A stretch of DNA of 42,079 nt from Nonomuraea lactucae (lineage in GTDB: Bacteria > Actinomycetota > Actinomycetes > Streptosporangiales > Streptosporangiaceae), in the NCBI RefSeq assembly GCF_003313395.1, contig NZ_QNFZ01000286.1, positions 1 to 42,079 of the forward strand. Direction: 5' to 3'. The notes under the pieces were generated by a model that saw only the letters and a list, made by a program, of their open reading frames with translations, was not told the DNA's origin and made no database searches. Each line of letters begins with the position of its first letter. The stretch's first letter is position 1. Shown here in pieces: positions 1-12,620 of this stretch. A program made the position numbers and the translations under genes.

Positions 1-302
1 TCGACGATTTCGAACGAGGCGCCGGTGGCAGCCACACCGAGCCACTCCTTCACCGGAGTACCCGTGTTGATTAGACGCGCAGCCAGACGATCACCGTCAA
101 AGAGCAGTTCCTTGAGCTCCCAATGCAGGTCCGGAACCGCGTCCACATCGGCTTTCTGAACCGCGATCAGGTCGTCCCGGCTGGCCGGCTCACCGTTCAA
201 CGTGGTCCGATCGTTGATGAACTCGTCCATGCCATCGAACCTGTGGGCATTGAGCTCCTGGATGTAGCGCAGGTAGAACGCACGTAGATCAGTGTCGGAC
301 AT
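1..302 (-). CDS. SnoaL-like ester cyclase / NTF2-fold protein (C-terminus cut by window edge)
   Basis: The visible 100 residues begin [20 protein letters not shown] and continue with alternating helix and strand segments, including [15 protein letters not shown] and [22 protein letters not shown]. This pattern is typical of SnoaL-like polyketide cyclase/ester cyclase proteins, an NTF2-like fold of about 130-140 residues. Known members cyclise polyketides, but most are of unknown substrate. The ATG at 302 has an AAGGGG Shine-Dalgarno sequence seven bases upstream. The gene runs off the left edge, so the C-terminal strands are not seen. It lies directly downstream of the decayed SDR gene on the same strand. 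Two copies of a 15-base direct repeat lie about 50-85 bases upstream of its start. Fold assignment is fairly sure; the reaction is unknown. Confidence 0.75.
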
Positions 303-1096
303 GAGATGACCCCTTCTGTATGACAACCCCAAGTCGGGGCTCCGACCGCACATTGTCAGGACGCGACACTTTGTCAGGACGCGACGCCCTACACGACCCC
401 CGACGTCTCGCCCGCCAGATCCGGTTCAGGCCGCCGTCGACGTACAGGCAGAAACCGGAGACGAAACTGCACTGCCCGCTAGCGAGGAAGGTCACGGCGA
501 CGGCGATCTCCCCCGGGCGCCCAAGCCGGCCCAGCGGCACACGCATAGCCCTGTGCTGCTTGAACTGCTCCGGGGCGGGGGCAGTGTTGACCCGGATACC
601 GCGACCCTTGAGTTCGTTGGCCCTGGTGCGGGAGAACTGCCGGGTGGCGGCCTTGGTCGCCGCGTACACGCCGAGCCCCTCATCGCCCGCGTTCAAGATC
701 ACCGAGGAGCCGTCGTTGAGCAGCGGCAGCGCCTTCTGAACGGTGAACAGCATTCCCCGGACGTTGATGCGGAACAGGGTGTCGAAGTGCTCCTCGGTGA
801 CCTGCTCGAGTGGCACGAGCGCGGCGACGGAGGCATTCGCGAACAGGACGTCCAGGCCCCGTCCCCGGCTGCGGATCGTCTCGTAGAGCCGGTCCAGGTC
901 GGCCAGGTTCGAGATGTCGCCGGTCACCGCGGTAGCCGCTGAACCGATCACTTCGACGGCCGCGTCGAGTTCGGTCTTGCGCCGGCGCCGGCGATGAACA
1001 CGTGCGCGCCCTCGGCCGCCAGTCGCCGACACTGGCCAGGCCGATTCCGGCGCTACCCCCGGTGACGAGAGCGGTCTTACCGTCAAGTAGTCCCAC
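289..1096 (-). pseudogene. Short-chain dehydrogenase/reductase (SDR), decayed
   Basis: The start is GTG at 1096, with AAGGGGG seven bases upstream. It encodes VGLLDGKTALVTGGSAGIGLA, the classical SDR cofactor motif TGGSAGIG. The frame then breaks: LAAEGAHVFIAG lies in a second frame and RRKTELDAAVEVIG in a third, which fits two single-base losses near 1010-1055. Further on, FANAS, the catalytic YAATK and the C-terminal YVDGGLNRI are readable. However, segments normally found between SVILNA and GVYAATK, and in the loop after GIRVN, are shortened. The normal stop after NRI is also lost and the frame runs on to 289. The family uses NAD(P) to interconvert alcohols and ketones. It lies opposite a TetR gene with paired operators between, so it was probably that regulator's target. 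Confidence 0.8.
353..385. repeat. Direct repeat, 15-base unit with 18-base period
   Basis: TTGTCAGGACGCGAC occurs at 353-367 and again at 371-385, three bases apart. It lies just upstream of the SnoaL-like start on the minus strand and inside the read-through tail of the decayed SDR frame. The spacing and place suggest a regulator site for the SnoaL-like gene, but a chance local duplication is equally possible. Confidence 0.5.
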
Positions 1097-1117
1097 GTTG
1101 ATGCCCCCTTCCATTTC

Positions 1118-1170
1118 TGCAGCGATCCCTACATAAGTCGGACGGTAGCACTTCTGTAGCGATCGCTGCA
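1118..1170. promoter_or_regulatory. Paired TetR-type operators between SDR pseudogene and TetR gene
   Basis: Two 16-base imperfect palindromes of consensus TGYAGCGATCSCTRCA are present: TGCAGCGATCCCTACA at 1118-1133 and TGTAGCGATCGCTGCA at 1155-1170. They are 37 bases apart, in the 94-base gap between the divergent starts at 1096 and 1191. Their position fits autoregulation by the TetR gene and control of the SDR gene. The match to each other is seen directly; binding is inferred. Confidence 0.75.
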
Positions 1171-1190
1171 AAAAGAGGTAGGCTGAAGGA

Positions 1191-1799
1191 GTGGGGAGGA
1201 AACAGGGCGGCCCCATCGGCCGGCCGCGAAAATTCGACGCCGACGAAGCTCTCGAGCGCGCCGTGCTGACCTTCTGGGAGCATGGCTACGAGGGGGCCAG
1301 CACGGCCCAGCTGGCGGACGCGATGGGCATCTCCACCACTAGCATGTACGCAGCCTTCGGCAACAAGGAGGAACTGTTCTGCAAGGCCCTGGAGCGCTAC
1401 ACCGAAGGCCCGAGCGCATACCTGACACAGGCCCTGGAGGAGCCGACCGCCCTCGGCGTCGCCACCGCGATCCTGGCCGGCACCGTTCGAACAACTACCC
1501 GCCCGGCCCATCCCCACGGGTGCCTGGGGGTCCAGGGCGCCCTGGCCGCCAGCGACTCCGGGCGTGGAGTCCGCGACCTTCTCGTCGCCTGGCGTAACAA
1601 TTCCTACTCCTGCGTCCGAGAGCGGTTCCAGCGAGCCGTCGACGACGGCGACCTTCCTCCGGAAACCGATCCGGGGCTCCTGGCCCGCTACGTCACCACT
1701 CTGGCGTTCGGTATCGCCGTGCAAGCCGCGAGCGGTGTCGGCCGCGATGAACTCCAGGAGTTGGCCGACGCCGCCCTGCGCAACTGGCCGCTCTCATGA
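1191..1799 (+). CDS. TetR/AcrR family transcriptional regulator
   Basis: A 202-residue protein. The N-terminal helix-turn-helix (about residues 8-55) reads GRPRKFDADEALERAVLTF and AMGISTTSMYAAFGNKEELF, typical of the TetR DNA-binding domain. The remaining helical part is the ligand/dimer domain. Its sequence (TTRPAHPHGCLGVQGALA) resembles TetR_C domains found beside oxidoreductases. The GTG start at 1191 is chosen because GAAGGA lies just upstream and the HTH begins at the expected distance. It is divergent from the SDR pseudogene with two matching operators in between. It probably represses that gene and itself; the ligand is unknown. The gene looks intact although its presumed target is broken. 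Confidence 0.92.
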   Translation: MGRKQGGPIGRPRKFDADEALERAVLTFWEHGYEGASTAQLADAMGISTTSMYAAFGNKEELFCKALERYTEGPSAYLTQALEEPTALGVATAILAGTVRTTTRPAHPHGCLGVQGALAASDSGRGVRDLLVAWRNNSYSCVRERFQRAVDDGDLPPETDPGLLARYVTTLAFGIAVQAASGVGRDELQELADAALRNWPLS

Positions 1800-1969
1800 G
1801 AACCGCCCAGCGCTGGTCTTCGCGAGAAGCTGCTCGCTGTAGCGGCCGTTTCTTACCAACGACCCTTCGCCCGAGCAAGATCAATAGAGCTCCTGAGCTT
1901 GCCGCTGGATGTTCTGCTCGTCGGTCCTGACCCGGACCAGGGGCTTATCGACAACGGAACGGCCAGTGG

Positions 1970-2054
1970 CGTCAGCGAGCCGACACGGGCGGAGTCGCCT
2001 GTTAAGACACTCGGCTGGCGTACTCCTGCCGAGGCGTTCAACGAGCATCCATAA
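1970..2054 (+). pseudogene. IS30-family transposase, extreme C-terminal scrap
   Basis: The frame ending at the TAA at 2052-2054 reads TLGWRTPAEAFNEHP. This closely resembles the C-terminal RPRKTLGWRTPAEALNE signature of IS30-family transposases. Only about 15-20 residues are recognisable, so the element itself is gone. No inverted repeat could be identified. The next IS scrap begins immediately after it. Confidence 0.5.
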
Positions 2055-2332
2055 GCACGGGGTAGTGCGGTCGATGGGCCGAGTCGGGTGCGCGCTCGAC
2101 AACGGAGCCGCCGAGTCGCTCAACAGCACGCTGAAGGTCGAGTTCGTGCACCGGCATCACTTCCGTACCCCGGGCGGAGGCTCGGCTGAAGATCGCGACC
2201 TGGATCGCCGACTTCTACAACGTCAGGCGCAGGCACAGTGCCAACGACGGGCTGCCGCCTGTCACATTCGAGGACCAGATGATCGAGAAGATGCAAGCAT
2301 CAACGGCCCTGCTGAGGGCCGCTGTGGCATAG
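2055..2332 (+). pseudogene. IS3/IS150-type transposase OrfB, C-terminal remnant with frameshift
   Basis: The sequence reads SMGRVGCALDNGAAESLNST followed by LKVEFVHRHHFRT. This is the last part of a DDE integrase core, with the catalytic Glu in AAES. After a frameshift near 2175 it continues ARLKIATWIADFYNVRRRHS and NDGLPPVTFEDQMIEKM, ending at TAG 2330-2332. The first two-thirds of the protein is missing. Together with the IS30 scrap it forms a composite scar just upstream of the thioesterase gene. Confidence 0.75.
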
Positions 2333-2367
2333 GACCGTCTCCACGGTTTGATTTTGAGGGGATTGAC

Positions 2368-3192
2368 ATGGGTGAAAACAGGTTTCCGTCCCGGATCGAT
2401 GTCCACGCGCGTCAGGGCGATCTCGGCCGGGACGGCTCGGTAAGCACGATCGGGCTGGCACGCTGGCTGGAGGACGCCCGGTTACGGGTGCGGCTGCGCC
2501 GGTTCGAACGACTCGTCGGTGTCGGTGCGTTTGACAGGTTCAGCATCATCCTCGTCAGTCAAAGCGTCGAACGGCTCGCGCCCGTCGGCCGGACGGATGC
2601 GAATGTGCAGGTCCACACCGGCATTCGCCACATCGGACGATCGTCGTTCACATACGAACAAGCGGTCCTGGCCGACGGCAGACGCGTCGGCGGCGGAGGA
2701 GCCACCATCGTGCTGGCCGGGGCTACGGGGCCGCTCACCTTGCCGGACGAGCTGATCGCCGATCTCGCCGACCTTCAGTTGGCGGCATCCGAACAGCAGA
2801 TGCCTCCCCGACCAGGGGCCGACCGCAGAGAGCGGGGCTACTACCCGGGTTCCGTCTCGCTGCGGGCCCGGATCGGCGACGTCGACTACAACGAGCACGT
2901 CAACTTCATGGCCCTGGCAACTTGGTACGACGAGGCCATCGCGACGCTTACGCGGAAGGCGATGGAGATCGGTCGGGAAGGGCCAGTGCCGGACCTGCTC
3001 CCCTGGTCATATCGCATTCACTACCTCGGCGAAGTGGCCTATCCCGGCGATTACGAGATCGGCGTGCTCGTCCGCTCCTTCGACGCTGATGCCGTGTGCT
3101 ACGAACTCGGAGTCTTCCAGGGCGACGAGTGCCTGGGCGTGGCCGATGCCGTGGGGCCACGTGGTGAGCTACCCACCGTGGCCCTCGCGTAG
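2368..3192 (+). CDS. Acyl-CoA/ACP thioesterase-like protein with two hotdog domains
   Basis: A 274-residue protein. The ATG at 2368 has a GAGGGG Shine-Dalgarno six bases upstream; the frame is open further upstream but overlaps the transposase scar, so that start is rejected. The C-terminal half (about residues 165-270) contains YYPGSVSLRARIGDVDYNEHVN and FMALATWYDEAI. This matches the hotdog signature of 4-hydroxybenzoyl-CoA-thioesterase-like enzymes (D-x-N-x-H-V-N followed by an E/D-rich helix). The N-terminal half (LEDARLRVRLRRFERLVGVG) resembles a second, more diverged hotdog domain, giving the fused double-hotdog layout of fatty-acyl thioesterases. The expected role is cytoplasmic hydrolysis of an acyl thioester. 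It stands alone between IS scars, and the substrate cannot be told. Confidence 0.7.
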   Translation: MGENRFPSRIDVHARQGDLGRDGSVSTIGLARWLEDARLRVRLRRFERLVGVGAFDRFSIILVSQSVERLAPVGRTDANVQVHTGIRHIGRSSFTYEQAVLADGRRVGGGGATIVLAGATGPLTLPDELIADLADLQLAASEQQMPPRPGADRRERGYYPGSVSLRARIGDVDYNEHVNFMALATWYDEAIATLTRKAMEIGREGPVPDLLPWSYRIHYLGEVAYPGDYEIGVLVRSFDADAVCYELGVFQGDECLGVADAVGPRGELPTVALA

Positions 3193-3204
3193 CCGTTGTG
3201 ACAT

Positions 3205-3388
3205 CTTCAATAGCCTCGCCTACCAGGGCCGACGCAGTTATGGCCGCCAGTATCTGCGCGGGCCGCTACTCGACGGAAAGCGGAATTCGGTGGAGCCGAT
3301 GGCGGGCCGGTTAGGCCTGCCCCGGCAGAATCTTGGTCACTTCATCGCTCAGTCCACCTGGAACCAAGCTATGAGGGCTGCGCGGTAA
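3205..3388 (+). pseudogene. IS701-family transposase, N-terminal fragment
   Basis: The frame reads RRSYGRQYLRGPLLDGKRNS then VEPMAGRLG and NLGHFIAQSTWNQA. This corresponds to the N-terminal YLRGLLLDGRRKSVEPMA...FV.QSPWD pattern of IS701-type (DDE_5) transposases. Only about 55 residues remain of a protein usually near 400 residues. The stop at 3388 overlaps the end of the TetR gene on the other strand. Confidence 0.7.
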
Positions 3389-4067
3389 CAGTGATCCCGA
3401 CGAGGAGGAATTCGACGCCCGTGATGAATTGCTGACGTTCGTCGTGTTCGGCCAGCTCGTGCGCTGTGCTGTAGGCAAAGGGGTGCGTAGAGGATCGCTG
3501 CCCCCCGCGCCAATCATCAGCTATGTCTGCCAGGACATCTGTCCTGCCGACCTGGCGCGCGTGTCGTGCCGCGGCGGCATATTGACTGGCGACGCCGAGT
3601 ACGTAGTTCACCAGCGCCGAAGCTGCCATGAAACGGCTCGGTCTGGCGATTCTCAAGGCGTCGAGATGCTCACCGATGCTCTCGAACAATTCCAGGAGTG
3701 CTGGTTGTCCAGGTTGATCGGTAAGCTGGGCACCGACCCACGGATGCTCGTCGATGGTGTCGAAGAGGGTCAGCATCAGAGCCCGGATGTCGGCACCGGG
3801 ATCGCTGTTCCGGGGCTTGCGCGAGATGGCTCGCGTGACAAGCTCGGCGGCGGCGGCGGCGAGGATTGCTTGTTTGCTTTTCAGGTGGTGATAGATAGCG
3901 CCGGGACCGGTGGCCAGAGCTTGCGCGAGGGTACGGGCGGTCAGCGCCTCCTCGCCCTCGGAGTCCAAGATCGTGATCGCCGCGTCGACGATCTTCGACG
4001 CTGTGAGCGCGTCCAAGCGGCGCTGCCGGCCCTGTTGGCGCTTGGGGTTCTCGTCCATGCGTCCCAT
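3369..4067 (-). CDS. TetR family regulator of the divergent ABM monooxygenase (module 1)
   Basis: A 232-residue protein from ATG 4067 (MGRMDENPKRQQGRQ); a second ATG lies at 4058. A start further upstream would be TTG and would lie inside the operator, so it is rejected. The HTH (about residues 28-65) reads LTARTLAQALATGPGAIYHH, followed by helices with HPWVGAQLTDQPGQPALLEL and VNYVLGVASQYAAAA. This C-terminal layout is shared with the TetR encoded at 6922-7587, so the two look like paralogues. Two boxes of the form TTGGAAC-N3-GTTCCAA lie between it and the divergent monooxygenase gene. Autorepression and repression of that gene are inferred. The ligand, perhaps an aromatic or quinone compound, is unknown. 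Confidence 0.9.
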   Translation of the reverse strand: MGRMDENPKRQQGRQRRLDALTASKIVDAAITILDSEGEEALTARTLAQALATGPGAIYHHLKSKQAILAAAAAELVTRAISRKPRNSDPGADIRALMLTLFDTIDEHPWVGAQLTDQPGQPALLELFESIGEHLDALRIARPSRFMAASALVNYVLGVASQYAAAARHARQVGRTDVLADIADDWRGGQRSSTHPFAYSTAHELAEHDERQQFITGVEFLLVGITVTAQPS

Positions 4068-4077
4068 CTTGACATTC

Positions 4078-4117
4078 GTGGAACGGTGTTCCAAACTTGG
4101 TTGGAATGGCGTTCCAA
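4078..4117. promoter_or_regulatory. Paired operators of module 1
   Basis: GTGGAACGGTGTTCCAA (4078-4094) and TTGGAATGGCGTTCCAA (4101-4117) are near-palindromes with 7-base arms and a 3-base centre, set 23 bases apart. They fill the gap between the TetR start (4067) and the ABM start (4142). The same architecture, with TTGGAGC arms, recurs at 6858-6901 beside the paralogous TetR. Binding is inferred. Confidence 0.8.
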
Positions 4118-4141
4118 AGTCGACGTGGCAAGGAGAGGCAT

Positions 4142-4459
4142 ATGGACAGGCACCAGCCCGGAGTTGTGCTCCGTTTCCAGGCCAAGAAGGACAAGGGCGA
4201 TGAACTCTTCCAGCTCGTCACCGATCTGCACCACACGGGCGACCCCGATGGCCCTGTCGACTGGGTTCTCAGCCGCGACGCCAGCAACTCGGACGTGATG
4301 TGGGCGTTCGAGTTCTACCGCGATCAGGACTCCTTCGACCGCCATTACTCCAACCCCGTGCTCGACGGGCTGCATCAGCGCGTGTTCGACCTACTCGCGG
4401 ACGAGGAGGGTCTTGATTCGTCGATGCGCGTCGACGTGCACATCGTATCCGCGAACTGA
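4142..4459 (+). CDS. Antibiotic biosynthesis monooxygenase (ABM)-like protein
   Basis: A 105-residue protein starting MDRHQPGVVLRFQAKKDKGD at ATG 4142, with AAGGAGAG upstream at good spacing. The alternating strands and helices (VVLRFQAKKDKGDELFQLV, VMWAFEFYRDQDSFDRHYSN) fit the dimeric ferredoxin-like ABM fold of about 100 residues. The family includes cofactor-free quinone-forming and quinol monooxygenases such as YgiN and ActVA-Orf6, along with many proteins of unknown role. It is divergent from a TetR gene with two operators between, so expression is probably induced by that regulator's ligand. A likely role is redox detoxification of a small aromatic compound. No catalytic residue can be assigned with confidence. 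Confidence 0.7.
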   Translation: MDRHQPGVVLRFQAKKDKGDELFQLVTDLHHTGDPDGPVDWVLSRDASNSDVMWAFEFYRDQDSFDRHYSNPVLDGLHQRVFDLLADEEGLDSSMRVDVHIVSAN

Positions 4460-4475
4460 CTCATACGGTTCCGAT

Positions 4476-4505
4476 GGGGCGGCCGGGTCTGAACCCGACC
4501 GCCCC
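4476..4505 (+). terminator. Rho-independent-like hairpin after ABM gene
   Basis: An inverted repeat with 13-base arms and one mismatch, loop CTGA, lies 17 bases after the ABM stop (GGGGCGGCCGGGT against ACCCGACCGCCCC). There is no T-run, as is common in actinomycete terminators. Confidence 0.65.
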
Positions 4506-4592
4506 GAGTGCAGATGAGAATGACGGCGCGGCTCGTCGACGAGCCGCCACGTCGGACAATAGCCAAAATGACTCAAGAAACGGGCCAGATTC

Positions 4593-5081
4593 GTGCACTC
4601 AGCAGTCTATGTCAATTTCCTCGGGTTCTTGGGAGCGTGGCTGTTGGTAGCCGGCCCTCTCTATCAAGGATCAATCGAGTTGAGGGAGCGGCAGGTCGAC
4701 CGGGCAGGCTTTGAAGCAGCCGCCCAGAAAGTTCCGTTCCCCGCGCTACCGTCAAAGTGGTGGTGGACTCTTCCGCCGGTGATGCTCGCCCTGCGCCGGC
4801 GGAGGACAAGCACCTACTGGCGTCAGGTTGTTGCTTTGTTCACACCAGCGCAACGAACCGAGTTCATCGGCCTCACCCGAAAGGCCACCGGATGGTTCGC
4901 CGTTGCCGGAGGCGCGTCTCTCATCGCGCTCAAGGAAACGTGGGAGCTCTCCGAAACCCTCGAATGGCATTTCTTCGGATTCTTCATCGGCTCGATCCTC
5001 ATGCTCATCCTGTCCATCGGCGGCGCGAAGGTTGGTGCCGGCCCCAGGGCCCCGGCAAAGTCGTTAGGTGACGCCGAGTAG
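4593..5081 (+). CDS. Small membrane protein of unknown function
   Basis: A 162-residue protein from GTG 4593; no ATG in this frame gives a better start. Three hydrophobic segments are visible: about residues 6-26 (VNFLGFLGAWLLVAGPLYQG), 99-114 (GWFAVAGGASLIALKE) and 125-146 (HFFGFFIGSILMLILSIGG). They are separated by a basic cytoplasmic-type loop with LRRRRTSTYWRQVVALF. I do not recognise the family. The C-terminus overlaps by 18 bases the end of the convergent ISAs1 remnant, so the tail after GAKVG may have been altered by the insertion. It lies between the ABM terminator and the IS remnant with no partner gene. Confidence 0.6.
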   Translation: MHSAVYVNFLGFLGAWLLVAGPLYQGSIELRERQVDRAGFEAAAQKVPFPALPSKWWWTLPPVMLALRRRRTSTYWRQVVALFTPAQRTEFIGLTRKATGWFAVAGGASLIALKETWELSETLEWHFFGFFIGSILMLILSIGGAKVGAGPRAPAKSLGDAE

Positions 5082-5690
5082 GGCCAGTAGTCGGTTGGCG
5101 TTGCGGGCGTGGTGGCGGTTGGCGGCGGCGATGTTGGTGGCGCCGGCGAGGCGAGGGCGCCGATGGCGGCGTTGCGGAGGGTGGCCATGACTTGGGGGTC
5201 GGTGCCGGTGTGGATTTGGGATCGGTCTTCGTCGTAGGTGACGTCACGGACCCAGTGGACCTTGTTCTCGATGGTCCAGTGTCCGCGGATCCAGTCGGCC
5301 GGCTGGATCGGTTTCGCTTGGTGGGTAAGGAGATCCGTGATCGCGTAGAGGGTCTCGGTGGTGCAGCGTTCGGGCTCGTCGAGACGGCGGCGGCGACGGC
5401 GGATCTGGATGGCCTGGGCGGCGTGGGGGAAGTCGATGCCGGTAGAGACGGACAGGATCTTCAGGGTGCGGATCTCGCGGCGGCCGTGACCGCCCGTGGT
5501 GTGGCGGTCGGCGTCGGGTACCAGCCGCCAGGGCAAGCCGGCCAGTTGCTGGTGCAGGCTGGGCTGGTTGCCTTTGACGGTGAGGATCCAGTGCGCGCCG
5601 CGCCGGGCGAGGTAGGCGACGTGGTCCCGCTGGCAGGGCAACGCGTCGGCGGTCACCACGACGCCGTGCAGATCGTTGAGCGTCAGGATT
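5064..5690 (-). pseudogene. ISAs1-family transposase, C-terminal half with frameshift
   Basis: On the minus strand NDLHGVVVTADALPCQRDHV, ARRGAHWILTVKGNQPSLHQ and WIRGHWTIENKVHWVRDVTY follow in order, then EDRSQIHTG and MATLRNAAIGAL. These are the hallmarks of ISAs1-type transposases (DDE_Tnp_ISAs1). A frameshift near 5156 precedes the normal tail NIAAANRHHARNANRLLALL, ending at TAA 5064. The N-terminal half is absent. The break lies at about 5690, directly against the 3' end of the FAD monooxygenase gene. No terminal repeat could be fixed. Confidence 0.85.
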
Positions 5691-6837
5691 GCGCGGGTTC
5701 CTGGTGTGGCGCGTTGAGGGCGGTGGTGAAGAGGTCGGCGAGTTTGAACGGTGTCTGGTCGCCGAGGAAGAGGTCGACGGTCTCGTTCGCATCGGCGTAT
5801 GCGGCGTCGCTGCGCGGGAAGAGACCCTGTTCGTAGGTGGTGAGTGCCGCTTCGATGTCGCCGGGGTTGGCGGCGATCGCCTTGGCGAGTTCGGCGCCGT
5901 CGAGCATCGCCAGGTTCGCGCCCTCACCGGACGGCGGCATCAGGTGTGCGGCGTCGCCGAGGAGTGTCACGCCGGGGGTGCGGTCCCATCGGTGCCCGTC
6001 GGGGAGGGTGTAGATCGGGCGCGGGACCGGCGCGGTGTCGCTGTCGGTGATCAGAGCGGTGAGCTCCGGCGCCCATCCCTGGAGCTCGGCCGCGACCTGG
6101 GCGGTCGCGGCGGCGGTGTCGGTGAAGTCGATGCCGGCCACCCACTCCTCAGGGCAGTGCAGCTCGAAGTACGTGTGCAGGATGTCGCCCGCCTCGCGGT
6201 GCGCGATGATCCCCTTTCCGGGAGACAGGGCGTACATCGCGCCGCAGCCGACCGCCTTGGCCGCCGCGGGGTGCCGCTCGTCGGCGTCGTGCAGGAAGGT
6301 CTCGATGGAGGAGGTGCCGGTGTAGCGGGGCTTGGCATCGGACAGCAGCGGCCTGATCCTCGACCAGGCGCCGTCGGCGCCGACCAGGAGGCCGGTGGTC
6401 ACGGCTGGTCCCTTGGCGAAGGTCACCTCATGCAGGCCGTCGCCCAGGGGCCGGGCACCGGTGGCCTTGCGTCCCCACTGGATACTCTCGGCAGGCAAGG
6501 AGTCGAGCAGAATCCGGCGCAGGTCGCCGCGGAGCACCTCTGGACGCCCGTGCGTGCCGTCGTCGGGCATTTCGGCCAGCACCGTTCCGCGGGAGTCGAG
6601 CACGCGTGAAGCCGCGCCGCCCTCATGGATGATCGCGCGGAACTCCTCCATCAGGCCGGCCGCCTCGAGCGCGAGCTGCCCGTTGTAATCGTGGATGTCG
6701 AGCCGGCCGCCCTGCGTGCGGGCCTCCGTAGAGGAATCGGCTTCATAGACCGTCGCGGGGATGCCGTTGACATGCAGAACGCGGGCGAGGGTGAGGCCAC
6801 CAAGGCCCGCACCGATGATCGTGACTGGTGTCGTCAT
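5683..6837 (-). CDS. FAD-dependent monooxygenase, TetX/PHBH-like
   Basis: A 384-residue protein, full length for the class. It carries the N-terminal dinucleotide motif VTIIGAGLGGLTLARVL (residues 5-21), the RGDLRRILL segment (about 115) and the second FAD motif GVTLLGDAAHLMPPSGEGAN (about 292-311). These define group A flavoprotein hydroxylases such as TetX and p-hydroxybenzoate hydroxylase. It would hydroxylate an aromatic or polyketide substrate with NAD(P)H and O2 in the cytoplasm. ATG 6837 is chosen over ATG 6840 because GAGAGG is then six bases upstream. It is divergent from a TetR gene with two perfect palindromic boxes between. The last residues (HQEPAQS) adjoin the ISAs1 scar and may be altered by it. 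It could serve in antibiotic inactivation or biosynthesis; the substrate is unknown. Confidence 0.88.
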   Translation of the reverse strand: MTTPVTIIGAGLGGLTLARVLHVNGIPATVYEADSSTEARTQGGRLDIHDYNGQLALEAAGLMEEFRAIIHEGGAASRVLDSRGTVLAEMPDDGTHGRPEVLRGDLRRILLDSLPAESIQWGRKATGARPLGDGLHEVTFAKGPAVTTGLLVGADGAWSRIRPLLSDAKPRYTGTSSIETFLHDADERHPAAAKAVGCGAMYALSPGKGIIAHREAGDILHTYFELHCPEEWVAGIDFTDTAAATAQVAAELQGWAPELTALITDSDTAPVPRPIYTLPDGHRWDRTPGVTLLGDAAHLMPPSGEGANLAMLDGAELAKAIAANPGDIEAALTTYEQGLFPRSDAAYADANETVDLFLGDQTPFKLADLFTTALNAPHQEPAQS

Positions 6838-6857
6838 CATGTTCCTCTCAAACTCGA

Positions 6858-6901
6858 TTGGAGCGCTGCTCCAATATATCCATTTTGGAGCAGCGCTCCA
6901 A
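6858..6901. promoter_or_regulatory. Paired operators of module 2
   Basis: TTGGAGCGCTGCTCCAA (6858-6874) and TTGGAGCAGCGCTCCAA (6885-6901) each have perfect 7-base arms and 3-base centres, 27 bases apart. They lie between the monooxygenase start (6837) and the TetR start (6922). They match the module 1 boxes except that the arm carries G instead of A at its sixth base. Confidence 0.85.
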
Positions 6902-6921
6902 ACGGTGGCATGATGGAACTC

Positions 6922-7587
6922 ATGGCGACCAGGACGAAACGAGGGGAACGGCGCGCGGACGCGCTGTCGAGGGAGCGGATCGTCGAGGCGGCCATCGAGA
7001 TCCTCGACGCCGGCGGTGAGAGCGCCCTGACCATCCGCGCGCTCACGGCCCGCCTGGCGACAGGGACCGGGGCGATCTATCACCACGTCGCCAACATGAA
7101 CGAACTGCTCGCGGCGGCCACCGACGACGTCATCGCCAATGCCATGACCGACGTGGTCAGCGTCGCCGACCCGCGGAAGGCGATCCGGGCCATCGCCCTG
7201 GCAGTGTTCGACGCGACTGACTCCCACCCCTGGGCGGGCTCCCAGCTCTCGCGCGAGCCGTGGCAGCCCGCGTTCCTGCAGATCGCCGAAAGCCTCGGCA
7301 GGCACCTCCAGGCGCTTGGTGTCCCCCAGCGAGCACAGTTCGACTGCGGATCCGCGCTCGGGAACTACATCCTCGGCGTCGCCGGACAGAACGCCGCCCG
7401 CGCCCGCCTCCACCCGCACGACCGGTCGGCCGTACTCGAAGACATCGCCGCACGGTGGGCGCAACTCGACCCCGACAAGTACCCGATCATGCGCCAGGTG
7501 GCGGCACAACTGCCCGAGCACGACGACCGCACGCAGTTCCTGGTCGGCATCGACCTCATCCTGGCCGGCATCACAACCGTCCTCTAA
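6922..7587 (+). CDS. TetR family regulator of the divergent FAD monooxygenase (module 2)
   Basis: A 221-residue protein from ATG 6922, with GGAA five bases upstream; ATGs at 6910 and 6913 are in frame and would leave almost no leader after the operator. The HTH reads LTIRALTARLATGTGAIYHH, nearly the same recognition region as the paralogue at 3369-4067 (LATGPGAIYHH). The C-terminal part shares HPWAGSQLSREPWQPAFLQI and LGNYILGVAGQNAAR with it. The perfect TTGGAGC boxes just upstream are its likely binding sites, giving autorepression and control of the FAD monooxygenase. The inducer is unknown but is plausibly the monooxygenase substrate. Confidence 0.92.
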   Translation: MATRTKRGERRADALSRERIVEAAIEILDAGGESALTIRALTARLATGTGAIYHHVANMNELLAAATDDVIANAMTDVVSVADPRKAIRAIALAVFDATDSHPWAGSQLSREPWQPAFLQIAESLGRHLQALGVPQRAQFDCGSALGNYILGVAGQNAARARLHPHDRSAVLEDIAARWAQLDPDKYPIMRQVAAQLPEHDDRTQFLVGIDLILAGITTVL

Positions 7588-7677
7588 ACAGCGTCCGAGG
7601 ACCACCCCGCACCCCCGCCCGGCGACCATCGGGCCTTCGGAGGAAACCAGCGGAACCACCGCGACCGTGACCACTCT

Positions 7678-7711
7678 GGTGTTCCGTTTGGGGATCCTCT
7701 TCCGGAACACC
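7678..7711. terminator. Stem-loop downstream of TetR (module 2)
   Basis: GGTGTTCCG (7678-7686) and CGGAACACC (7703-7711) form a perfect 9-base stem with a 16-base loop, about 90 bases after the TetR stop and before the resolvase remnant. It may be a terminator or an old element end. Confidence 0.4.
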
Positions 7712-7757
7712 GGCCAGCCGGGACGGCGCCGCAGGTCGGGGTTTCCCGTAAGACCGC

Positions 7758-8197
7758 AGCGGCCTGGACCAGGCCCTGGCCGCGGTGTGGCCCGACAGCG
7801 TGTTCACCGTGACCAAGTTCGACCGGTTCGCCCACAACATGGCCGAGGCCAACCAGATCCTCACCGACCTGTCCGGCCGGGGCGTGCTGTTCGGGCTGGC
7901 GAGTCGGTCTACGACTGGAACGACCCGTTCGGCCAGCTGTTCCTGCAAACCCTGGCGATGGTCGCCGAATTCGAGGCAAACCTGGGCCACATGCGCACCC
8001 GCGAGGGCATGGCGCTGGCCAAGAAGAACGGCAAGCTCAAGGGCAAGCAGCCCAAGCTGCCCGAGCCGGCGCGGCGCTCCATCCGCCGCCGCTACGCCGA
8101 GGGAGAGGTGTCGCTGGCGGATCTGGCGACCGAGTACAGCCTCGGCCGCTCCACCATCCATCGCATCATCCACGGGCCGCCGGCCGGGCAGAGCTGA
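7758..8197 (+). pseudogene. Serine recombinase (resolvase/invertase), N-terminally truncated and frameshifted
   Basis: The first frame reads SGLDQALAAVWPDSVFTVTK then FDRFAHNMAEANQILTDLSG. A frameshift near 7905 then leads to SVYDWNDPFGQLFLQTLAMV, AEFEANLGHMRTREGMALAK and the C-terminal HTH DLATEYSLGRSTIHRIIH. This is the usual order of small serine recombinases from Tn3-type transposons. The N-terminal catalytic Ser region (YxRVS) is missing, so the product cannot be active. It sits head-on to the IS110 remnant. Confidence 0.88.
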
Positions 8198-11989: not shown

Positions 11990-12300
11990 TCAGAGCGGAC
12001 CAGCTGACTGTTGACCCTCAGCGGCCGGTCCCGGCCCGAGGTCGAGCTGTTTGCTCATGTCGAGCTCGAACCTGCCGTATGGGTTCAGACGGGACCAGAA
12101 GAGAGCCGACAGGGCGCGCCGGTCGGCGTCGGCGAGCTTCTTTCGCCACTTCGGCTCGGCGAGGACGATCTGTACCAACCTGGTGTCAGGTAGACGATCG
12201 CGGCCTGGACCAGGTGCAGCGCCAGCGCGGAGACCTCGACGTGTTCGCGGTCGTCGCCGGTCAGATCACCGGCCTTACCGTAGAAGATGTCCTTTGGAAG
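11990..12300 (-). pseudogene. Tn3-family transposase (TnpA), C-terminal end
   Basis: Leftward from about 12300 the sequence reads LPKDIFYGKAGDLTGDDREH and VEVSALALHLVQAAIVYL. After a one-base loss near 12183 it continues RLVQIVLAEPKWRKKLADAD, RRALSALFWSRLNPYGRFEL and DMSKQLDLG. This is the C-terminal part of the Tn3-type DDE transposase, with the usual FYGK-x-G and LHLLQNxLVYxNT segments. The rest of the gene is absent here. A different, non-overlapping piece of a Tn3 TnpA occurs at 32330-32812 in the opposite orientation. Confidence 0.8.
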
Positions 12301-12329
12301 GGCGCCGGGCGGGGGCGGTGTTCACACCG

Positions 12330-12620
12330 ACCGGCGGACCCGGGTGGAACTGCCGCCAGCCGACATCGACGCCGGCAGCGGGGGTTGCGTCCACGGAAGT
12401 GGTGTACGAGCTGTTCGAGGCCGCCACCGGCGGCTGGACGCTGCATCAGCTGCGGCACTCGGCGCTGACCCACGCGGCCGAGGGCGGCGCCAACACCTCC
12501 ACCCTGCTGGCCTACTCCGGGCCCACCTCGGTCGCCTCGCTGGCCCGCTACGCCCGGGTCTCGGGTGAAGCGCTCGCATGCTGGCGGGCTGGGCGCGACC
12601 CCGCCGCACGCACGCGGTGA
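12330..12620 (+). pseudogene. Tyrosine recombinase/integrase, C-terminal remnant
   Basis: The first frame has RTRVELPPADIDAGSG. After a frameshift near 12395 it reads YELFEAATGGWTLHQLRHSA, LTHAAEGGANTSTLLAYSGP and TSVASLARYARVS. HQLRHS is the box-II H-x-L-R motif and the Tyr in RYARVS is the nucleophile. The usual SGHTS is SGPTS here, so the second conserved His is lost. With the missing N-terminus this marks an inactive remnant of a Streptomyces-type site-specific integrase. Confidence 0.8.

Follow-up and report, generated by a model that had tools for sequence, protein, structure and literature searches.

Two SCO7222-type TetR repressor–oxygenase modules in Nonomuraea lactucae with predicted operators that differ by one base

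Why should two related TetR repressors lie 3 kb apart, each divergent from a predicted oxygenase gene and each beside a pair of inverted repeats that differ from those of the other by a single base? The question is raised by a contig of Nonomuraea lactucae (NZ_QNFZ01000286.1), which belongs to an assembly of 8.67 Mb in 1068 contigs (GCF_003313395.1) and whose whole length of 42,079 bases is the window analysed here. An original prediction, made from the letters of the DNA, had read the locus as a duplicated regulator followed by operator divergence, perhaps with two oxygenases acting on one compound. We consider it probable that the window instead holds two modules of the SCO7222/SCO7223 type that are independent of each other, each TetR preferring its own boxes and the second module having been recently transferred.

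The TetR genes were confirmed at positions 3369 to 4067 (TetR1, minus strand; PF00440) and 6922 to 7587 (TetR2, plus strand; PF00440 and PF02909); TetR1 has an alternative second ATG at 4058 that fits the spacing of its family better. As had been predicted, each of them is divergent from a gene for a putative oxygenase. In module 1 this is an ABM-domain protein (4142 to 4459, plus strand; PF03992, E 1.1e-7), the probable target of TetR1, across a gap of 74 bases, and in module 2 it is a flavin adenine dinucleotide (FAD)-dependent monooxygenase of the TetX/AbsH3 group (5683 to 6840, minus strand; PF01494, FAD_binding_3), the probable target of TetR2, across a gap of 81 bases. Among solved structures, PDB 2hxo is closest to both TetRs (E 1.9e-61 for TetR2 and 4.7e-40 for TetR1); we take it to be SCO7222, so the regulator to which both modules are related presumably has a crystal structure. 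In the tree of the family the 2hxo sequence adjoins L113, probably a Streptomyces member, since L086 of the same genus group encodes a protein identical to that of a Streptomyces plasmid (L196), and a starred branch of 76 rows includes SCO7222, TetR1 and TetR2, which, judged by sequence, belong to the SCO7222 family.

Both modules are thereby tied to a regulator with published footprints. According to the footprint and reporter results of PMC3511530, SCO7222 of Streptomyces coelicolor protects three regions in the 146 bp gap between its own gene and the divergent monooxygenase gene SCO7223, the protected regions contain three repeats of TGGAACGNCGTTCCA, and SCO7222 in cis cuts an SCO7223-promoter reporter 72-fold. 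SCO7223, termed a monooxygenase there, is probably a FAD enzyme, to judge from its family. Like that system, both modules combine whole-length similarity of the TetR with a divergent oxygenase gene less than 200 bp away and multiple boxes (TGGAAC-N3-GTTCCA in SCO7222, two boxes in each module). They differ from it in that the published gap has three boxes whereas each window module has two, in that the G-type arms of module 2 are unlike the SCO7222 operators, and in that module 1 has an ABM protein in place of the FAD enzyme. Given the published switch and the relatedness of the regulators, the window modules appear to be new members of the published kind. They are ordinary members of it, and the transferred cassette and the pattern at base pair 3 described below are the added interest.

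Box 1a (TGGAACGGTGTTCCA, 4079 to 4093) is a 15-mer with 6-base arms of the A type (TGGAAC-GGT-GTTCCA), matching the published SCO7222 operators in form, and box 1b (TTGGAATGGCGTTCCAA, 4101 to 4117), 23 bases from it, has 7-base A-type arms with one mismatch (TTGGAAT-GGC-GTTCCAA). Boxes 2a (TTGGAGCGCTGCTCCAA, 6858 to 6874) and 2b (TTGGAGCAGCGCTCCAA, 6885 to 6901), 27 bases from each other, are both perfect 17-mers with 7-base arms of the G type. Thus, of the two 17-base palindromes with 7-base arms that had been described for each gap, the number stands for both modules and the form for module 2, but neither box of module 1 has that form. The single base said to separate the arms of the two modules is real: it is A versus G at arm base 5 of TGGA(A/G)C, and the half-sites are uniform within each module (4/4 A in module 1 and 4/4 G in module 2). 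A genome-wide search for TTGGARY-N3-RYTCCAA, which had been suggested as a check, found three places, all inside the window (reversed control, 0), and the shorter TGGARY-N3-RYTCCA has nine occurrences (reversed control, 2), the four boxes included; of the other five, three lie inside long frames of high third-position G+C (GC3) and two are ambiguous.

The boxes recur in relatives. Family searches covered sets of 149, 394, 55, 295, 8 and 342 genomes (some genomes standing in several sets), together with plasmids, and yielded 130 different members with a length of 200 residues or more; a single scan of genome contigs with TetR2 as query had found three loci. L142, which is shorter, was omitted from the trees and from the counts on 130 members; L046, L065 and L068 were removed as cut or second copies, L049, L053, L073 and L075 to L085, which were cut or repeated genes present under other ids, never entered, and L046 and L049 were re-entered in longer form as L143 and L142. 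Duplicates identical to earlier rows were dropped (6, 3 and, in the fresh set described below, 2), and 15 of 25 plasmid records were used, those left out being eight of less than 40% identity and two that repeated a strain already covered. Within 160 bases upstream, at least one TGGA-N7-TCCA box was found for 95 of the 130 members and at least two for 87, which amounts to 224 boxes in 20,800 upstream bases versus 5 in 285,360 bases of TetR gene and downstream DNA. A start 34 to 36 bases before the TetR start is shared by 84 of 225 boxes, and each window module has one box at this distance when the TetR1 start is taken as the ATG at 4058; in module 2 it is box 2b, where the distance from the first base of the 15-base core to the start of TetR2 is 36 bases.

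Of the 130 members, 90 have a FAD monooxygenase as divergent partner (81 TetX-like and 9 of ring-hydroxylase type), 15 a major facilitator superfamily (MFS) transporter and 6 an ABM protein, and for 19 no partner was identified in the DNA examined; the Pfam check of partners covered ten examples. Module 2 thus has the partner of most members. The ABM partners are the window's own and five others, two of which were scanned and fell under the Pfam ABM cut-off. Family members also lie on plasmids of Rhizobium, Burkholderia, Streptomyces and Curtobacterium.

The window boxes are predicted to be operators of a known kind. A dimer of each TetR would bind the two TGGA-N7-TCCA boxes of its short divergent gap and, by analogy with SCO7222 and TetR, the bound dimer would block both promoters, that of its own gene and that of the oxygenase gene; release would be brought about by a small molecule, perhaps the substrate of the enzyme or a compound related to it. 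Module 1 would read the common A-type arm and module 2 the rarer G-type arm. By eye, a TTGACA stands at 4069 to 4074, just ahead of box 1a, and a dimer on this box would cover the ABM promoter if it started from that hexamer. Against this account, a scan of both gaps for consensus promoters found none, and it accepts no second hexamer with the TTGACA. The genes, the boxes, their conservation across the family, the block shared with another genus and the association between residues and bases can be read in the sequence; binding, repression, release by a ligand and insulation in this organism are what we infer.

How might two such similar arms be told apart? Counted from the centre of the 15-mer, arm base 5 belongs to base pair 3, and we propose that recognition-helix residue 38 would read it and that residue 48 would take part as well. 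These residues were placed by assuming the TetR numbering of the chain start. The alignment to TetR has equal lengths (query 19 to 77 on chain 3 to 61), which gives Thr38 and Met48 in TetR2 and Pro38 and Lys48 in TetR1; residue 43 is His in both. The window modules resemble TetR/TetA in the divergent layout, in two 15-bp palindromic operators and in residues 28 and 38, which align without gaps, whereas overall similarity is weak (about 30 bits) and the target is an oxygenase and not, as TetA is, an efflux pump. In the operator contacts given in PMC7102968, Gln38 of TetR bonds adenine at +3 and Arg28 bonds guanine at +2.

In the 95 members with exact boxes, arm base 5 is A in 312, G in 83, T in 38 and C in 17 of the 450 half-sites; at arm base 6 there are 390 C and 60 T, and the first four arm bases are fixed by the search pattern. 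Members lacking an exact box (35 of 130, and 19 of 45 in the fresh set) are absent from these base counts, and the rule given below is silent on them. Residue 28 is Arg in 94 of the 95. The 56 members with Pro38 have A in 249 of 292 half-sites, the 12 with Tyr38 have T in 28 and G in 20 with no A, and the 11 with Met48 have G in 37 of 54; with Arg38, C was found in 8/8 half-sites of two training rows and in 8/8 of two fresh rows, one of the latter almost duplicating a training row. We stated these observations as a rule: when residue 38 is Tyr, Arg or Thr, or residue 48 is Met, A makes up less than half of the bases at arm base 5, and otherwise the base is A. In the 95 training members A is under half in 23 of 26 inside this class and in 0 of 69 outside it, the exceptions L048, L169 and L194 having A at exactly half; in 35 representatives at 75% identity the figures are 9/9 and 0/26.

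The rule was fixed before being tried on a fresh set of 45 members, which came from another order and from six further plasmids; 26 of them had exact boxes. It was right in 23 of the 26 (16 of 17 predicted to have A and 7 of 9 predicted not to), and an outcome other than A was seen in 7/9 inside the class versus 1/17 outside it (Fisher p 4e-4). The seven correct cases without A are five Tyr38 and two Arg38 members. This fresh set lends support to residue 38 and adds nothing for Met48, which is the part that bears on TetR2.

Several observations weigh against such a rule. The residue classes were chosen after the first 95 members had been viewed, and the fresh members are partly non-independent, L247 being close to the earlier L195. 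The three fresh misses are L210, a Tyr38 member with A in exactly half of its half-sites, L222, which has Leu38 and mostly T where A was predicted, and L237, the lone fresh Met48 member, with two A and two G; in the training set the Met48 member L169 likewise has one A and one G. L048 and L194 combine Thr38 with Lys48 and have half A, so Met48, or the combination of Thr38 and Met48, is the likelier cause of G. On the tree there are three to four supported independent pairs, of which one or two are informative, too few for significance (sign test, median p 0.5 to 1); none of them opposes the combined rule, and for residue 38 alone one pair is opposed in some of 200 pairings. Mutual information places position 27 above position 38 and position 32 about level with it. 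Given the few independent pairs and the mutual information at positions 27 and 32, relatedness accounts for part of the association.

We therefore put forward only tentatively, at a little less than an even chance, that the SCO7222 family has a natural recognition code for base pair 3 and that a one-base switch insulates co-resident mobile cassettes, the window being an example; the estimate stays below an even chance because only one fresh case bore on the pairing of Met48 with G, and there G made up exactly half. The code would pair Pro, Ser or Ala with A, Tyr with T or G, Arg with C, and Met48 with G, the rest of TGGA-N7-TCCA being fixed. It would be a simple rule, by which one operator base depends on one or two residues, in repressor–oxygenase cassettes that are also found on plasmids, and if it is true a set of natural repressor–operator pairs would be expected to be mutually insulated. 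A literature search on operator specificity with covariation found no paper, and beyond this and a search on the Gln38 and Arg28 contacts of TetR we make no claim of absence from print.

For the window itself, the difference between TetR1 (Pro38, Lys48) and TetR2 (Thr38, Met48) suggests that each should prefer its own boxes, and two insulated repressor–operator pairs are predicted. The main rival to insulation is cross-binding at lower affinity: both TetRs would bind all four sites, the base difference would be tolerated, and the two enzymes would form one response. Several members have mixed arms in one gap (A with G, or T with G), and single Lys48 members, such as L060 and L098, have a G half-site, which leaves room for cross-binding and speaks against strict insulation; set against these, both window modules are uniform in all their half-sites, and across the family the arm base tracks the recognition-helix residues. 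Such cross-regulation seems to us unlikely, though it deserves to be taken seriously. Next to nothing, by comparison, can be said for the boxes being palindromes that arose by chance, or stems of terminators, in a G+C-rich genome. It is true that perfect 7-N3-7 palindromes of any sequence number eleven in the 42 kb window, two of them among these boxes and nine elsewhere; the evidence for the boxes is their pairing, their position and their conservation in relatives, and not the rarity of the palindrome. Enrichment upstream of family members, the recurring distance to the TetR start and the footprints reported on boxes of the same form (in the results of PMC3511530 cited above) all argue against chance, and a scan of both gaps for terminators found no terminator-like site.

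The remaining alternative concerns the origin of the pair. The TetRs are homologous, as had been claimed: they are 45-46% identical (101 of 226 columns), whereas the next-best TetR of the same genome is only 30% identical to TetR2 as query, and at E 1e-30 they are the only family matches in the source genome with either as query. This, and their closeness on the contig, would suit a single TetR/oxygenase module having been duplicated locally in this lineage, with later divergence of the operators. However, TetR2 is 66-72% identical to relatives in other genera (up to 72% beyond Acrocarpospora), and the best relatives of TetR1 reach 47-50%; the two enzymes come from different Pfam families; and of the nine family genomes with two matches in the set of 342, the window's alone has them adjacent. 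In the Acrocarpospora genome the family search (E <= 1e-30) found an orthologue of TetR2 and no TetR1; since TetR1 itself scores 1.5e-53, an orthologue of it would have been expected to pass this threshold. The phylogeny proposed as a check went part of the way, TetR1 forming a long branch of uncertain position and its sisterhood with TetR2 being absent from the best tree, yet the approximately unbiased (AU) test does not reject this sisterhood (p 0.337 and 0.152), which counts in favour of duplication, so that the TetRs are not formally shown to be other than close relatives. The same test rejected the grouping of TetR2 and eleven near relatives as one clade (p 0.025), so the branching close to TetR2 is to be read with caution. 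We regard duplication as very improbable and replace it with an account by transfer.

Transfer rests on a two-gene block (5683 to 7584) that is 97.2% identical over 1904 bases (blastn) to positions 1772 to 3675 of the Acrocarpospora pleiomorpha locus L050. On one side it ends at the stop codon of its gene, on the other among the last codons of the second gene; apart from it, blastn matched the window to the 6.7 kb of L050 only over 110 bases, between TetR1 and the TetR2 orthologue (72.7%). Box 2a retains its arms in A. pleiomorpha, with altered middle bases. Because rpoB of the source genome is 89.2% identical to that of A. pleiomorpha over 3316 bases, module 2 is too similar for plain vertical descent, and we infer that transfer probably caused the sharing of the block. 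Close to one edge of module 2 lies an ISAs1 transposase remnant (5162 to 5659, minus strand; C-terminal part, profile positions 140 to 311; NF033564, 107.8 bits against a cut-off of 70), and to its right a serine resolvase remnant (7904 to 8173, plus strand; PF00239, E 4.4e-8) that comprises the end of the N-terminal domain and a helix-turn-helix (HTH) within an open reading frame at 7316 to 8197 (PF00239 at residues 197 to 240, HTH_7 at residues 255 to 286 under its cut-off). With mobile-element remnants on both sides, module 2 has the look of a cassette that was transferred recently. For the suggestion that the two oxygenases act on one compound no support was found, the FAD enzyme being the usual partner in the family and module 2 lying between such remnants.

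As to the enzymes, the ABM protein scores 32.4 bits, over the Pfam PF03992 cut-off of 23.1, its oxygenase activity being only predicted, and it had no match at E <= 1e-12 in 98 other genomes searched. The nearest solved structures of the FAD enzyme (phmmer) are 6n04, AbsH3 (2e-74), and 8aq8 (5e-65). Its top NCBIfam match is Tet(X) (NF033111), an assignment rejected with 143.1 bits, far under that model's cut-off of 750, and as a tetracycline destructase (NF033476) it missed the cut-off as well (31.5 bits against 550). The code 8aq8 appears in the article on SmTetX, an enzyme described there as modifying oxytetracycline in vitro (PMC10327574).

Elsewhere in the window, a third TetR (TetR_C_13; 1191 to 1799, plus strand), at whose locus there is no TGGA-N7-TCCA box, is divergent from a short-chain dehydrogenase gene that is apparently spread over two frames (289 to 1216, minus strand). 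Between the modules lies an open frame of 162 residues (4593 to 5081, plus strand) that is hydrophobic by eye and has no Pfam match. Mobile remnants in the left 13 kb also include an integrase core (1909 to 2400) and a phage-type integrase (12051 to 12620), both under their Pfam cut-offs. An Rfam search of the window gave 0 matches at the gathering score.

Within the family, L188 to L191, on large replicons or plasmids of the Proteobacteria Rhizobium and Burkholderia, are 60-64% identical to TetR2 and have A-type boxes upstream, and in the Rhizobium records the DNA match extends over the FAD gene too. A sister group (L067, L069, L070, L072, L183, L186 and L244) has the helix GGGV(A/G)S(I/V)YWYV and upstream boxes of the form TCGAAC-N3-GTTCGA; an MFS transporter of the kind seen in this group is the divergent partner in 13 of the 130 members. 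In a further group with Arg48 (L124, L133, L135, L136, L239 and L248 to L250) the helix reads SGA(I/V)Y(Y/H)(H/R)VG and the upstream boxes are degenerate, as in TGGTGC-N3-GCTCCA, arm base 4 apparently being altered on one side.

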